Source: Rhizobium sp. CIAT894 (lineage in GTDB: Bacteria; Pseudomonadota; Alphaproteobacteria; Rhizobiales; Rhizobiaceae). Taken from it: 64,000 bases of DNA. How positions within the stretch are numbered: the stretch's first letter is position 1; every line of letters begins with the position of its first letter. The position numbers and the translations under genes are program-made. The DNA lies in the NCBI RefSeq assembly GCF_000172795.2, contig NZ_CP020947.1, positions 4,109,001 to 4,173,000 of the forward strand, read 5' to 3'. This document shows positions 10,645-21,843 of this stretch, piece after piece. Below the pieces are notes generated by a model. That model saw only the letters and a program-made list of their open reading frames with translations, was not told where the DNA came from and made no database searches.

Positions 10645-11109
10645 TTAGCTTTCGGCCTCCAGAAGCCGAGCCCCCGGCCCTTCTTTGCCGAGCCGGTCGC
10701 CGGGATTGCGCAGCGGACAGCTATCGACCGACAGGCAACCGCAGCCGATGCAGCCGGTCAGGCGGTCGCGCAGCAGGCTGAGCTGGCTGATTCGCGCGTC
10801 GAGATCGTCCTTCCAGCGGGCCGACAGCGTCTGCCAGTCGGTGGCCGTCGGCGTGCGTCCCTGCGGCAGCGATTCGAACGCGGCCTGGATTTCCGCAAGC
10901 GGAATGCCGACACGCTGCGCCACCTTGATGATCCCGAGCCGGCGAAGCACGTCGCGCCCGTAGCGGCGCTGGTTGCCACGGCTGCGAATGCTGGAGATCA
11001 GTCCCTTGGTTTCGTAAAAATGCAGCGCCGAGACGGCAAGGCCGCTGCGCTCAGCCACCTCGCCGACCGTCAGGAGCTTGCCGAGCGGCACTGTAGGAAT
11101 TGTCTCCAT
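10645..11109 (-). CDS. soxR: redox-sensitive transcriptional activator SoxR
   Basis: 154-residue MerR-family protein. The HTH is [20 protein letters not shown], followed by the dimerisation helix and the [2Fe-2S] cluster motif Cys120-x2-Cys123-x-Cys125-x5-Cys131 that defines SoxR. The cluster senses redox-cycling compounds or nitric oxide. It is divergent from a flavin reductase gene, with a canonical SoxR box in the 82-bp shared promoter. In non-enteric bacteria SoxR usually controls a few local genes directly, which fits here. Confidence 0.95.
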
Positions 11110-12035: not shown

Positions 12036-12170
12036 ATGTTCTCAGGCGCACAAATATCACTCTATCCGATGTCCGGCAGTTTCGTCGGCATCATTCTCGA
12101 TGCCATCAAGGCGCCCGATCCCTATCGCAACCGGCTGCGCATCGAGAGCGACGCTGAAATCGAACGCTGA
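12036..12170 (+). pseudogene. truncated YkoF-family thiamine/HMP-binding protein, 44 codons
   Basis: The frame starts at the riboswitch ribosome binding site and reads MFSGAQISLYPM, FVGIILDAIKAPDPYRNR, LRIESDAEIER, then TGA. The first 38 residues match, from memory, the start of YkoF-like proteins that bind thiamine or its pyrimidine precursor and are normally about 200 residues. The rest of the domain is missing, without a transposon scar, so a deletion within the gene is likely. The stop overlaps the transporter permease start (TGATG at 12168-12172), so the minigene still couples riboswitch-gated translation to thiX. It may survive as a leader peptide. Confidence 0.7.
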
Positions 12171-12976
12171 TGACATCGTCGCAACCATCGGATTCGCGCC
12201 TTGCCGCACTCCTCGCCGCTCTCATCCGGGGCATGCCCGCCTTTCTCGCCGGCTGCGCCTTTCTGGCGGCATGGGAAATCTATGTCGATCTCTCCGGCAT
12301 CAAACCGTCGATCCTGCCGGCGCCTTCGCGCATCGTCATCCAGGGCTGGTTGAACCGCGAGGCGCTGATAGCGAACACCTGGCCGACGCTTGGGGCGACA
12401 CTTGGCGGTTTCGCGCTGTCGCTTGCCTTCGCCTTCGCCGCGTCGATCCTCATGGATTTCATGCCCTTCATGCGCCGGGCGTTGCTGCCGGTCTTCATCG
12501 CCAGTCAGACCCTGCCGCTGGTGGCAATCGCCCCTCTTGTCGTCCTCTGGTTCGGTTTCGGTCTCGTGCCGAAGATCCTGCTGGTGGCGCTCGTCACCTT
12601 CTTTCCGCTGCTCGTCGCCCTGCTGCAGGGTTATGAATCGACCGACCGCGACATCGCCGAATTGCTGAACTCGATGAAGGCAAGCCGCTGGCGGATTTTC
12701 CGCCTGGCTCGGCTTCCCTCTGCGCTGCCCTATTTCTTCGCCGGCCTGAGGATCTCGATCACCTATGCCGTCGTCGGCGCGATCTTTGCCGAATATGCCG
12801 GTGCCGCCCGCGGCCTCGGCATTTATATTCTCAACGCCAAGAACAATTTCCGTCCCGACCTCGTGCTCGCCGCCGTCCTCGTCAGCGCCGTTCTGACACT
12901 CTGCCTTTTCGGGCTGACGCTGTTGATCGAGCGCCTCGTCATGCCCTGGCAGCCATCCGGGGAGCGGCGCCGATGA
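12170..12976 (+). CDS. thiX: ABC transporter permease for thiamine/pyrimidine precursor
   Basis: 268 residues; BPD-type inner-membrane permease with about six spans. The cytoplasmic EAA-type loop is near MKASRWRIFRLARLPSALPY. The ATG overlaps the upstream minigene stop. With ThiZ and ThiY it forms a CmpA/TauA-like importer under a TPP riboswitch, the arrangement known for uptake of HMP or formyl-aminopyrimidine in rhizobia and other bacteria. The exact substrate is inferred. Confidence 0.9.
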   Translation: MTSSQPSDSRLAALLAALIRGMPAFLAGCAFLAAWEIYVDLSGIKPSILPAPSRIVIQGWLNREALIANTWPTLGATLGGFALSLAFAFAASILMDFMPFMRRALLPVFIASQTLPLVAIAPLVVLWFGFGLVPKILLVALVTFFPLLVALLQGYESTDRDIAELLNSMKASRWRIFRLARLPSALPYFFAGLRISITYAVVGAIFAEYAGAARGLGIYILNAKNNFRPDLVLAAVLVSAVLTLCLFGLTLLIERLVMPWQPSGERRR

Positions 12977-13785
12977 GCGATGCAATGGTTGAACTGCGCA
13001 AGATTTCGAAGTCCTTCGACGGCATGCAGGTTCTGGGCGATATTTCGCTCACCGTCGCGAACGGTGAGTTCGTTTCGATCGTCGGCCCATCCGGCTCCGG
13101 AAAATCGACGATATTGCGATTGCTGACGCAGGCGCTGCGTGCCGATTCCGGCGCCTTGCTTTTCAACGGCGCGCCGCTGGAACAGGCGCCGCATTCCTTC
13201 GCCTTCATGCCGCAGCGCGATGCGCTGATGCCCTGGCGCCGGATCATCGACAATGCGGCACTCGGCCTCGAGGTGCGGGGCATGAGCCGCCGGGCCGCCC
13301 GCGCCGCCGTGGCGTCGCTGTTCGAAAGTTTCGGTCTTGCCGGCTTCGAACGCCATTATCCCTCCGAACTATCGGGCGGCATGCGCCAGCGCGCCGCCCT
13401 GCTGCGCACCGTCGTGCAGAGCCAGGACATGCTGTTGCTCGACGAGCCTTTCGGCGCGCTCGACGCGCTGACCCGCATGCAGATTCAGGAATGGCTGCAG
13501 GGCATGTGGACCGAACACCGCTGGACGGCGCTGCTGATCACCCACGACGTCCGGGAAGCCGTATTCCTCTCCGACCGCATCTACGTGCTTTCGGCCCGTC
13601 CGGCGCGTATCATACGCGAATTCCACGTTCCTCTGCCCCGCCCGAGAAGCATTGCCGATCTCGGCTCGGCGGCGGCCCAGGCGATCGAAACCGAAATCCT
13701 GCAAACCCTGCTGCATCCGCTGGAACAGGATGATTTCAGGCCGGTCGGCCTAAAATCCGAATCCTGTTCTCATTTAAAGAGTTAG
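12973..13785 (+). CDS. thiZ: ABC transporter ATPase for thiamine/pyrimidine precursor
   Basis: 270 residues; start overlaps thiX as ATGA. Walker A GPSGSGKST near residue 38, Q-loop in FAFMPQRDALMPW, signature LSGGMRQRAALLRT, Walker B LLLDEPFGALD, and H-loop LLITHDVREA. The last 18 codons (13729-13782, DDFRPVGLKSESCSHLKS) are written by the B unit of a palindromic repeat that has replaced the original gene end. This tail is outside the ATPase core, so the enzyme is probably functional. Confidence 0.92.
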   Translation: MSDAMVELRKISKSFDGMQVLGDISLTVANGEFVSIVGPSGSGKSTILRLLTQALRADSGALLFNGAPLEQAPHSFAFMPQRDALMPWRRIIDNAALGLEVRGMSRRAARAAVASLFESFGLAGFERHYPSELSGGMRQRAALLRTVVQSQDMLLLDEPFGALDALTRMQIQEWLQGMWTEHRWTALLITHDVREAVFLSDRIYVLSARPARIIREFHVPLPRPRSIADLGSAAAQAIETEILQTLLHPLEQDDFRPVGLKSESCSHLKS

Positions 13786-13829
13786 AGCATGATGCCGAAA
13801 ACCGCTCACATTTTTCGGCATCATGCTCT
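13728..13829 (-). repeat. Rhizobium-type palindromic mosaic, units A-B (copy 2)
   Basis: Reverse-oriented copy of the element at 10375. Unit A (13784-13829) has arms AGAGCATGATGCCGAAAA and TTTTCGGCATCATGCTCT around the same TGTGAGCGG loop; unit B (13728-13770) carries AGGCCGGTCGGCCT. Unit B overlaps the thiZ coding end, and unit A ends 20 bp before the thiY start. Confidence 0.85.
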
Positions 13830-13849
13830 CAAGACCTGAGGAGGTCACC

Positions 13850-14860
13850 ATGCTGCTTCTCACCCGTCGCCAGACGATCTTCGCCGCCATCGCGGCAAGC
13901 CTCGCCGGCCGCTCCGCCTTCGCCCAATCGGCGCCCGCAAAGGTCCGCATCGCGCTCGACTGGACGCCCAACACCAACCATATCGGCATCTATGTCGCCA
14001 AGGCGAAGGGCTTCTATGAAGCCGCCGGCCTCGATGTCGACATCCTTCCCTTTGCCGATGCCAGCGCCGGAACGCTGGTGTCCAACGGCGTCGCCGATTT
14101 CGGCATCAGCAGCGAGATCGAGGCCATCACGCAGCGCGCCGGCGGCGGCGACGTGAAGATGGTCTACGGCGTCGTCCAGACAGAAACCGCACGGCTGATC
14201 TTCAAGGGCGGGCGCGACGACATCAAGAGCCCTAAAGATCTCGACGGCAAGACCTATGGCGGCTTTGGCGGCACCTGGGAAAGCGCGCTGGTCTCGGCGA
14301 TGATCCGCAATGATGGCGGCAAGGGCGAGGTCAACACCGTCACCCTCGGCACCTCCGCCTACGAGGCGCTGGACAATGGCTCGATCGATTTCACCCTCGA
14401 AATCTACACCTGGGAAGGCATCGCCGCCGAGCTGGAAAAGCGCAAGATCGGCCGCTTCCACTATTCCGATTACGGCATTCCCGACGAGCAGACGACGGTC
14501 ATCGTCTCCAGCGACGCCTATCTCTCGGCAAGCCGCGAACATGCCCGCGCCTTCATCCAGGCGACGCGCCAGGGTTATGCCTATTCCGTCGACCATCCCG
14601 ACGAAGCCTGCGAGCTGCTGATATCGGGAAGCAACGGCGCGCTGATGAACACGGAACTGGTCAAGGCTTCCCAGAAGGCGTTGATCGAGGGGCACTTCCT
14701 GAGGTCCGAGACCGGGGTGATCGGCACGCTCGACCCGGCAAAGGCCGAAGGCATCGGCGGCTTCCTGGTCGAGAACGGCATTCTGGTCGATGCGAATGGC
14801 GCAGCCCTCAAGGAAAAGCCGGATTTTTCCAGCTATTACACCAACGAACTCCTCGCCTGA
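13850..14860 (+). CDS. thiY: periplasmic thiamine/pyrimidine-precursor binding protein, NMT1/THI5 family
   Basis: 336 residues from ATG 13850, which has GAGGAGG 6 nt upstream; the in-frame ATG at 13823 lies inside a repeat and is rejected. An N-terminal signal with TRRQ and a hydrophobic stretch ending in AFAQ suggests export, possibly by Tat. The mature part carries the NMT1 signature RIALDWTPNTNHIGIYVAKA and GVADFGIS. Related proteins bind formyl-aminopyrimidine or HMP. It completes the riboswitch-controlled importer. Confidence 0.92.
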   Translation: MLLLTRRQTIFAAIAASLAGRSAFAQSAPAKVRIALDWTPNTNHIGIYVAKAKGFYEAAGLDVDILPFADASAGTLVSNGVADFGISSEIEAITQRAGGGDVKMVYGVVQTETARLIFKGGRDDIKSPKDLDGKTYGGFGGTWESALVSAMIRNDGGKGEVNTVTLGTSAYEALDNGSIDFTLEIYTWEGIAAELEKRKIGRFHYSDYGIPDEQTTVIVSSDAYLSASREHARAFIQATRQGYAYSVDHPDEACELLISGSNGALMNTELVKASQKALIEGHFLRSETGVIGTLDPAKAEGIGGFLVENGILVDANGAALKEKPDFSSYYTNELLA

Positions 14861-17301: not shown

Positions 17302-17709
17302 TCAGTCCTGTTGAACGATGCCGCTCAGATGCGTCAGTTCCATGATGAAGTGCTCGAGCTTCGACTTATGCTCGTGCAGCTCGGCATGTTCGAGCTCCAT
17401 GCGGGCGGCTTCGATGCGGCGGGTCAGTTCGTCCTTATGGAGCTCCTCGACCGGAACCGCGGATTCTGCAAGCAGGGTGCAGCCGGTCGGCAGGATATCG
17501 GCAAAACCGCCGAACACGACATAGTCCTGCTTCTTGCCGGAAGCCGAGCGCACGCTCACGACACCGGGCTTGATCGTCGTCATCGTCGGCGCGTGGTGCG
17601 CCATGACGGTCATTTCGCCTTCGGTCGCAGGAATGACGACCTCGGTCACCATCTCCGACAGCAGCAGACGCTCCGGCGAAACGAGCTCAAAGTTGAAATT
17701 GTCAGCCAT
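17302..17709 (-). CDS. atpC: F1 ATP synthase epsilon subunit
   Basis: 135 residues; the N-terminal beta-sandwich (FELVSPERLLLSEMVTEVVIPATEGEMTVM, in two blocks around residues 5-35) is typical of bacterial epsilon. The last gene of the operon, it couples the central stalk and inhibits hydrolysis. Its ATG overlaps the stop of the small zinc-ribbon frame (TGATG), so its translation should depend on that frame being read. Confidence 0.97.
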   Translation of the reverse strand: MADNFNFELVSPERLLLSEMVTEVVIPATEGEMTVMAHHAPTMTTIKPGVVSVRSASGKKQDYVVFGGFADILPTGCTLLAESAVPVEELHKDELTRRIEAARMELEHAELHEHKSKLEHFIMELTHLSGIVQQD

Positions 17710-17947
17710 CAGTGACTTACCTTCTCGGCTATGGCTTTCGCATCTTGCAATTTAGTCCCGCAGAACGGGCAGTGCATTATTGCCTGGTCGAGGTAACCGA
17801 GGCCTTCCTCGCTCTGGACCAGACCCACCACCATCATCATCACGCCGTTATCGGCGCGATAGATGATCGGCGCTGCCGGTTCCGGAAGATCCGCCACGAC
17901 CCCTTTCAGGGAGTCGCAGCAGAATATCTCGTCCAAGGCATCGGTCA

Positions 17948-17948
<1 letters not shown>
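17709..17948 (-). CDS. small CPFCG (zinc-ribbon-like) protein between atpD and atpC
   Basis: 79 residues from ATG 17948. It overlaps the atpD stop and the atpC start by one base each (TGATG at both ends), so it is embedded in the operon and coupled on both sides. Visible: Cys10-Cys11 near the N-terminus, a hydrophobic GVMMMVVGLVQ strand, and a C-terminal CPFCGTKLQ (Cys60, Cys63) that looks like half a zinc knuckle. No signal peptide. I do not recognise a characterised family; standard atp operons lack it. The tight junctions show that it is a real gene. A role in ATP synthase assembly or in adjusting AtpC levels is only inferred. Confidence 0.85.
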
Positions 17949-20285
<2,337 letters not shown>

Positions 20286-20313: not shown

Positions 20314-21843
20314 TTACGAGAAAGACTTTGCGAAGCTATCGAGAGCAGCATTGAGCTTGCCCTTGGTATCATCGCTGATTGCCTTTTCCGTGCGGATTGC
20401 GTCGAGGATGGCGGAGCCTTCCGAACGCAGGTACGAAAGCAAGCCCTGCTCGAACTTGCCGACCGATGCGACCGGCAGCTTGTCGAGATAGCCGTTGACG
20501 CCGGCGAAGATCACGGCGACCTGCTCTTCCGTCTTCAGCGGCGAGAACTGCGGCTGCTTCAGGAGTTCGGTCAGGCGCGCACCGCGGTTCAGCAGGCGCT
20601 GCGTTGCAGCGTCGAGGTCCGAACCGAACTGGGCGAAGGCGGCCATTTCGCGATACTGGGCGAGTTCGCCCTTGATCGAGCCGGCAACCTGCTTCATCGC
20701 CTTGATCTGCGCCGAAGAACCGACGCGGGAAACCGACAGACCGACGTTAACGGCCGGACGGATGCCCTGGTAGAACAGGTCGGTTTCGAGGAAGATCTGG
20801 CCGTCGGTGATCGAGATCACGTTGGTCGGAATGAAGGCCGAAACGTCGTTGCCCTGCGTTTCGATGACGGGCAGAGCGGTCAGCGAACCGGCGCCCTTGT
20901 CGTCATTCATCTTTGCGGCGCGCTCGAGGAGACGCGAATGCAGGTAGAAAACGTCGCCCGGATAGGCTTCGCGGCCCGGCGGGCGGCGCAGCAGCAGCGA
21001 CATCTGGCGGTAAGCGACAGCCTGCTTGGACAGGTCGTCATAGCCGATCAGGGCGTGCTGGGCGTTGTCGCGGAAGTATTCGCCCATTGCGCAACCTGCG
21101 AACGGAGCGAGGAACTGCATCGGAGCCGGGTCGGAAGCCGTCGCAGCAACGATGATCGAGTACTTCAGGGCGCCGCGCTCTTCGAGGACCTTGACGAACT
21201 GGGCAACGGTGGAGCGCTTCTGGCCGACGGCGACGTAGACGCAGTAGAGCTTATCGTTGTCAGGGCCGTTGTCGTGGATCGGCTTCTGGTTCAGGAAGGT
21301 GTCGAGCAGGATCGCGGTCTTGCCGGTCTGGCGGTCGCCGATGACGAGCTCGCGCTGGCCGCGGCCGACCGGGATGAGCGCGTCGATGGCCTTGAGGCCG
21401 GTCGACATCGGCTCATGAACCGACTTGCGCGGAATGATGCCTGGGGCCTTGACGTCGACACGCGCACGGCGGGTCGCGTTGATCGGGCCCTTGCCGTCGA
21501 TCGGGTTGCCGAGCGCGTCGACGACGCGGCCGAGCAGCTCCGGACCGATCGGAACGTCAACGATGGCGCCCGTGCGCTTGACGGTATCGCCTTCCTTGAT
21601 GTCGCGGTCGGAGCCGAAAATAACAACACCGACGTTATCAGATTCAAGGTTCAGGGCCATGCCGCGGATGCCGCCGGGGAACTCGACCATTTCACCGGCT
21701 TGGACATTGTCCAGACCGTAAACGCGAGCGATACCGTCACCGACGGAGAGAACCTGGCCGACTTCCGAGACTTCCGCCTCTTTGCCGAAATTTTTGATCT
21801 GGTCTTTGAGAATTGCCGAAATTTCCGCGGCGCGGATATCCAT
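20314..21843 (-). CDS. atpA: F1 ATP synthase alpha subunit
   Basis: 509 residues. Nucleotide-binding P-loop GDRQTGKT at 169-176, non-catalytic type, and the signature [17 protein letters not shown]. Its ATG overlaps the atpH stop (TGATG at 21841-21845), indicating coupling. Length and motifs match alphaproteobacterial alpha subunits. Confidence 0.98.

Follow-up and report, generated by a model that had tools for sequence, protein, structure and literature searches.

Few operons in biology have, to our knowledge, been studied as intensively as those for ATP synthase, and their genes are taken to be known in full. Small genes that do not encode subunits are known from some of these operons, for example atpI and a frame between the gamma and beta genes of Rhodopseudomonas blastica, which occupy operon positions different from the one considered here. 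The window analyzed in this study, a stretch of 64,000 nucleotides from Rhizobium sp. CIAT894, harbors a small open reading frame (ORF) between atpD and atpC, which raises the question of whether it is a real gene and what its product does in the F1 operon. A search of open-licence papers found no publication describing the small gene, in agreement with the original statement that no described function was known; one paper on E. coli (PMC8686765) reportedly contains the phrase 'between atpD and atpC'.

The small ORF and its surroundings

The features of the locus, all on the minus strand, are as follows.

17302..17709 (-): atpC, epsilon subunit, 135 aa, Pfam ATP-synt_DE_N
17707..17711 (-): TGATG, overlap of the ORF stop and the atpC start
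17709..17948 (-): small ORF, 79 aa, ATG start, CC, 48 residues, then CPFCG
17720..17726 (-): GAGAAGG, probable Shine-Dalgarno sequence of atpC in the last codons of the ORF
17757..17771 (-): CPFCG codons, residues 60-64, invariant in aligned members
17916..17921 (-): codons of the Cys-Cys pair, residues 10-11, invariant in aligned members
17946..17950 (-): TGATG, overlap of the atpD stop and the ORF start
17948..19378 (-): atpD, F1 beta subunit, Pfam ATP-synt_ab, ATG start inferred (listed ORF from 19432)
19401..20285 (-): atpG, gamma subunit, ORF named by sequence reading
20314..21843 (-): atpA, alpha subunit, ORF named by sequence reading

The predicted 79-residue CPFCG frame with its TGATG overlaps to both neighbors was thus found in place, and a search of the window's own genome returned the ORF as the sole match to itself. 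Elsewhere in the window, genes for a putative ABC transporter permease, an ATPase and an NMT1/THI5-like binding protein were seen by eye at 12170-14860, with a putative MerR-like regulator nearby at 10645-11109.

An open frame alone is weak evidence for a gene, because 748 of 20,000 single-base shuffles of the ORF stay open. Stronger evidence came from substitution rates. The median dN/dS of the ORF was 0.114 among 72 distinct Rhizobium sequences (2511 pairs; L207 and L266 were left aside), compared with 0.076 for atpC (2263 pairs), while atpD gave no defined value. The two wrong frames gave 1.57 and 1.49, although the usable pairs were few for both (294 for the first, 373 for the second). The protein is still recognizable in relatives at 29-41% identity. 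The ORF is not explained by chance and encodes a protein under purifying selection; with relatives in the same slot, the claim of a real protein built into the F1 operon was borne out.

Two invariant cysteine pairs and a predicted small fold

The CPFCG motif had been regarded as half a zinc knuckle. This view has to be revised, because a second pair of cysteines, residues 10-11 in the context FCCD, is as invariant as CPFCG, and the four cysteines form a full rather than a half set. Both motifs were present in 40/40, 26/26 and 82/82 members of three alignments, although this invariance is partly favored by the way members were found, since the 82 were chosen among the listed matches from hits sharing short (5-residue) words with the query. 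All 53 loci that a genome profile search found outside Rhizobiaceae also have CC and a CPFCG. The residues invariant in the 82 members are, in window numbering, C10, C11, L14, P27, V41, G42, G51, D54, CPFCG and K76, and the distance from CC to CPFCG is 47 residues in 69 members and 48 in the other 13. Four conserved ligands of the metal-binding type, as required of a zinc protein, are hence found in all 82, and the small protein is likely to bind zinc, judged from its sequence. AlphaFold2 predicted a helix (12-19), three strands (29-31, 37-46, 49-56) and a second helix (70-78), with pLDDT 79 and pTM 0.61 when a deep alignment was supplied and pLDDT 55 with a shallow one.

No match above cut-off was obtained for the protein in Pfam and NCBIfam, and comparisons with solved structures by sequence profile, Foldseek and VIA-align gave no significant match. 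The closest known systems share single features with it. The CPxCG zinc finger proteins, such as Brz of Halobacterium and the micro-proteins of Haloferax, are likewise shorter than 100 residues, contain CPxCG and are mostly hypothetical, and Brz is encoded adjoining the genes it serves, as the small ORF might be (PMC2253796). The CPxCG-related zinc fingers are defined by two Cys/His pairs, each with a spacing of 2-3 residues and lying 7-40 residues apart (PMC2253796). Compared with this definition, all aligned members of the present family contain the CPFCG, but the first pair is adjacent (CC) instead of spaced by 2-3 residues and the gap of 47-48 residues exceeds 7-40. According to PMC11241148, 5 of 14 predicted CPXCG zinc fingers of Haloferax were zinc-free. 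Pfam DUF6980 (PF22400) shares the C-terminal CPFCG; however, it aligned over this end only, with 13.2 bits against a gathering cut-off of 27, and weak matches occurred in 7 of the 82 members (best E 0.061). The phage Lar-type zinc ribbons also share the C-terminal CPFCG, but the best viral Foldseek match (BFVD), a phage restriction-alleviation protein, was not significant (E 0.021, probability 0.77). A further protein, 61 residues long and seen in an AT-rich, phage-like alphaproteobacterial stretch (L286, 1513-1698), combines a Cys-rich start with CPFCG at its end. It is possibly a fold relative of the small protein, and no atp gene was seen nearby.

Distribution of the gene and of its slot

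The proposed check of other Rhizobiaceae atp operons gave a positive, patchy answer. The small gene was matched in 87 of 148 Rhizobium genomes, with three more relatives in other genera of the family. Two of the 87 copies are broken, by a frame shift in mid-gene (G200) or near the C-terminus (G207). The gene is absent from the other 61 Rhizobium genomes, whereas atpC is present in all 148. Among these non-carriers, of which 58 were fetched (not G301, G314 and G297) and 57 parsed (not L198), the gap between atpD and atpC measures 69-78 bases. The spacer of the non-carriers (L148-L205) often shows a GC-rich hairpin in place of the small gene. When four such spacers were folded, three beat their shuffles (z -3.2 to -3.5) and one did not (-1.0). 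A weak atpD tree places some non-carriers amid the carriers, and this mixture may reflect allele exchange at the atpD-atpC slot. No fixed difference between carriers and non-carriers was found in the compared part of atpD. The start of AtpC differs between most carriers and non-carriers, but the commonest form of the carriers also occurs in 13 of 56 non-carriers.

To look beyond the genus, 199 Rhizobiaceae were searched with a single sequence, which returned four Rhizobium and a relative in G083, in which the CC part and the CPFCG part lie in different frames (L005, 1461-1692); either this copy has decayed or its sequence contains an error. When a profile of the Rhizobium proteins was run against 297 genomes of the order, 22 matched, namely 4 in Rhizobium, 12 in a family labeled f2, 5 in f18 and 1 in f19, and all 18 outside Rhizobium sit between atpD and atpC. 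Profile search of Rhizobiaceae matched 9 of 346 genomes, comprising five Rhizobium, three of other genera with the relative in the atpD-atpC slot (G083, G1186, G1243) and a weak match elsewhere in the genome of G1174; at two loci of other Rhizobiaceae genera (L328, L329), the end of atpD was read before the member and an AtpC-like start after it. Among 385 genomes of the class, only the window's own genome and a phage-like look-alike were matched. A wider profile search scored 7995 candidates from a set of 5.8 billion; 1304 of these candidates had E values of 0.001 or lower, and the list of matches comprised 120. The organisms named among the matches listed are Rhizobium, Sinorhizobium fredii, Hyphomicrobium, Filomicrobium, a Hyphomicrobiaceae genome and one labeled Pirellulales, which is probably a mis-assignment. 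In view of these names f2 most likely represents the Hyphomicrobiaceae, and f18 contains Acuticoccus, because two f18 proteins have exact counterparts among the proteins named for this genus.

The gene is far more regular in f2, where it was found in 95 of 103 genomes and 22 of 25 genera (the match in G1037 contains a stop codon), than among Rhizobiaceae; in the Acuticoccus family it occurs in 5 of 10 genomes. The expectation that atp operons run directly from atpD to atpC is hence borne out by most of the Rhizobiaceae mapped, whereas f2 departs from it. A location in the atp operon across the family, as expected for an F1 accessory, was seen at every locus read: all 98 carrier loci of Rhizobium (repeat fetches included) have the gene between atpD and atpC, and all 53 loci outside Rhizobiaceae, from 42 genomes of three families and covering 36 of the 95 f2 carriers, have the end of atpD upstream and an AtpC-like start downstream. 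The AtpC motif used for these 53 was loose, and it lay 14-102 bases away in 51 of them and 158 and 243 bases away in the other two. The family was seen at a single site in each genome, except for second weak matches in two f2 genomes (G1065, G1095). In the protein tree, a quick one with long branches flagged, the members from Rhizobiaceae and from the Acuticoccus family form separate groups (SH-aLRT 88 each), for which reason the link of the small gene to F1 looks old.

The slot also accepts other genes. In 13 of the 107 mapped non-Rhizobium Rhizobiaceae genomes, which come from the better AtpC matches among 190 such genomes with AtpC, it is filled by unrelated small genes: YHS-like in 4, a secreted-looking 117-aa protein in 4, an 82-84-aa protein in 2 and singletons in 3, with two doubtful frames (L067, L115) kept outside this count. 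The YHS-like protein (L137, L234, L237, L238) has 61-65 aa and the pattern CPWSGKPI..GFCNPGC, and is a small Cys protein unrelated to the present one; against Pfam it reached E 0.00036, yet 20.9 bits compared with a cut-off of 30.3. The 117-aa protein was seen at L133, L141, L146 and L210, the 82-84-aa protein at L214 and L227, and the slots of L116, L219 and L220 hold two membrane-type proteins and one of 154 aa.

Junctions and hints on expression

The junctions were parsed in 100 Rhizobium loci (repeat fetches of genomes included; L206 and L265 were missed), and since the filter accepted only loci that show CPFCG, CC[DE].L and, at the start, T[AG]ATG, finding these motifs in all 100 is no evidence in itself. 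The junction of atpD and the ORF reads TGATG in 68 and TAATG in 32 loci, while that of the ORF and atpC reads TGATG in 98, TAATG in 1 and is shifted in 1 (G207). The one-base overlap with atpC is also found at the f19 locus and at four of the five loci from f18, but 6-84 bases separate the two genes in all 12 f2 loci examined. Each of the last codons of the ORF (GCC GAG AAG GTA AGT CAC) is either constant or altered in a single one of the 72 sequences, even when silent sites are counted, and within these codons GAGAAGG lies 10 bases 5' of the atpC start. In spacers devoid of the ORF, CGAGAAGTGA stands at the place of GAGAAGG in 11 of 15 cases and close variants in the other 4. Because these codons are nearly frozen and hold GAGAAGG, the C-terminal AEKVSH has probably been shaped by the ribosome-binding site of atpC as well. 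Folding of the RNA at the atpC start was no more stable than that of shuffled sequences.

Codon adaptation, trained on the codons of atpD, was 0.22 for the small gene in Rhizobium, compared with 0.76 for atpD, 0.50 for atpC and 0.10 for a wrong-frame control. Corresponding values were 0.61 in f2 (atpD 0.75; among the 43 loci of this set some genomes are represented twice, and the f19 locus may be one of them) and 0.38 in f18 (atpD 0.82). Of 74 distinct Rhizobium sequences, 71 encode CPFCG as TGC CCG TTC TGC GGG, and all 74 use GGG for the Gly; outside Rhizobium these codons vary, and local RNA folding at CPFCG is not unusual. In the Rhizobium loci, counting repeat fetches, 166 of the 474 Gly codons in the remainder of the ORF are GGG or GGA; the corresponding figures are 12 of 706 for atpC and, for the part of atpD examined, 10 of 899. 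These codon data indicate that the small protein is probably made at a low level in Rhizobium, and it may be abundant in f2. The expression dose does not tell a subunit from a factor.

According to PMC4255674, both atpD (RL4407) and atpC (RL4405, for which 3 potential insertion sites are given) are essential in R. leguminosarum 3841. Our own count agrees with that source in finding 3 TA sites in atpC of this strain, and it gave 8 in the small gene. Given the agreement and its position between RL4405 and RL4407 in Table 3 of PMC4255674, RL4406 should be the small gene of strain 3841.

What the small protein might do

Purifying selection, the linkage to atpD and atpC and the two invariant cysteine pairs are established in the members aligned and read; metal binding and contact with F1 are what we infer for the product. 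The reading we prefer, at about even chances, is that of an F1-dedicated accessory family of the Hyphomicrobiales that binds a metal, probably zinc. The protein would be translated directly after beta from their common transcript, and in Rhizobium ribosomes stopping on atpD would restart at once on the small ORF. The CC and CPFCG pairs may jointly bind one zinc ion and thereby hold the predicted helix - three-strand - helix domain together. The folded protein might then serve as a factor for assembly or regulation that acts on beta or on the stalk of gamma and epsilon in newly made F1, perhaps tuned by zinc or the redox state. The earlier proposal of a part in F1 assembly or in zinc or redox sensing thus remains the best guess. 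The more specific version, in which an F1 metalloprotein senses zinc or redox via CC/CPFCG and governs how the beta-epsilon part is assembled or how active it is, is put forward as a tentative idea. Against an F1 accessory speak the patchy occurrence, with 61 of 148 Rhizobium genomes lacking the gene and few Rhizobiaceae matched (9/346), and the broken copies in G200, G207, G083 and G1037. The same side counts the missing match to a known fold, the lack of a fixed atpD difference between carriers and non-carriers, the unrelated genes in the slot, and codon adaptation, whose hints on dose are mixed (low in Rhizobium, higher in f2). The gene is dispensable, since related species live without it.

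The main rival is a passenger gene with its own cytosolic job, for example in zinc or redox homeostasis or in RNA or DNA binding, which would reside in a slot that gives strong, constant co-expression and tolerates inserts. The other small genes that occupy the slot in 13 of 107 genomes fit such a scenario, as does the small CPxCG protein Brz, a gene regulator according to PMC2253796. However, a passenger should sometimes move, whereas this family keeps to one place per genome apart from the two second weak matches in f2, and it is near-universal in f2; we therefore regard the passenger as possible but somewhat doubtful. Weaker than this rival is the idea that the ORF is a translational spacer, whose reading carries ribosomes from atpD to atpC and sets the beta:epsilon ratio while the peptide matters little. 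It is related to the earlier proposal that AtpC translation depends on the ORF, and it draws some support from the one-base overlaps at both ends in the parsed Rhizobium loci and on the atpC side in most f18 loci and in f19. The probable Shine-Dalgarno sequence inside the ORF can be read both ways, in favor of the spacer and, as a site of atpC's own, against the dependence, and the 69-78-base spacers of the non-carriers, with hairpins beating shuffles in 3 of 4, could be an alternative tuning of the junction. On the other side, the 6-84-base gaps in f2, the ordinary RNA fold at the atpC start and the retention of atpC in all 61 Rhizobium genomes without the ORF leave the proposed dependence weakly supported. 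Strong selection at the protein level and the four invariant cysteines further argue against a mere spacer, which appears rather unlikely.

It is finally very improbable that the small protein replaces zeta (PF07345, DUF1476), the likewise small, supernumerary F1 regulator of alphaproteobacteria, which PMC9317440 places outside both atp operons. The window's genome lacks a PF07345 match, as a substitute would predict, but the ORF itself has no match to PF07345 either (hmmscan to E 1), and the domain occurs in 39 of 87 carriers and 6 of 61 non-carriers, so that the two distributions are not complementary. PF07345 matches are sporadic in Rhizobium in general (45 of 148 genomes), and some genomes have several.

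For the biology of F1, the preferred accessory reading has a wider bearing. A conserved Cys-rich protein under selection, encoded between the genes for beta and epsilon in almost all of one bacterial family and in many Rhizobium, suggests an apparently untested layer of F1 assembly or control, and the mixture of carriers and non-carriers within the genus Rhizobium makes the question of its role in F1 directly testable.
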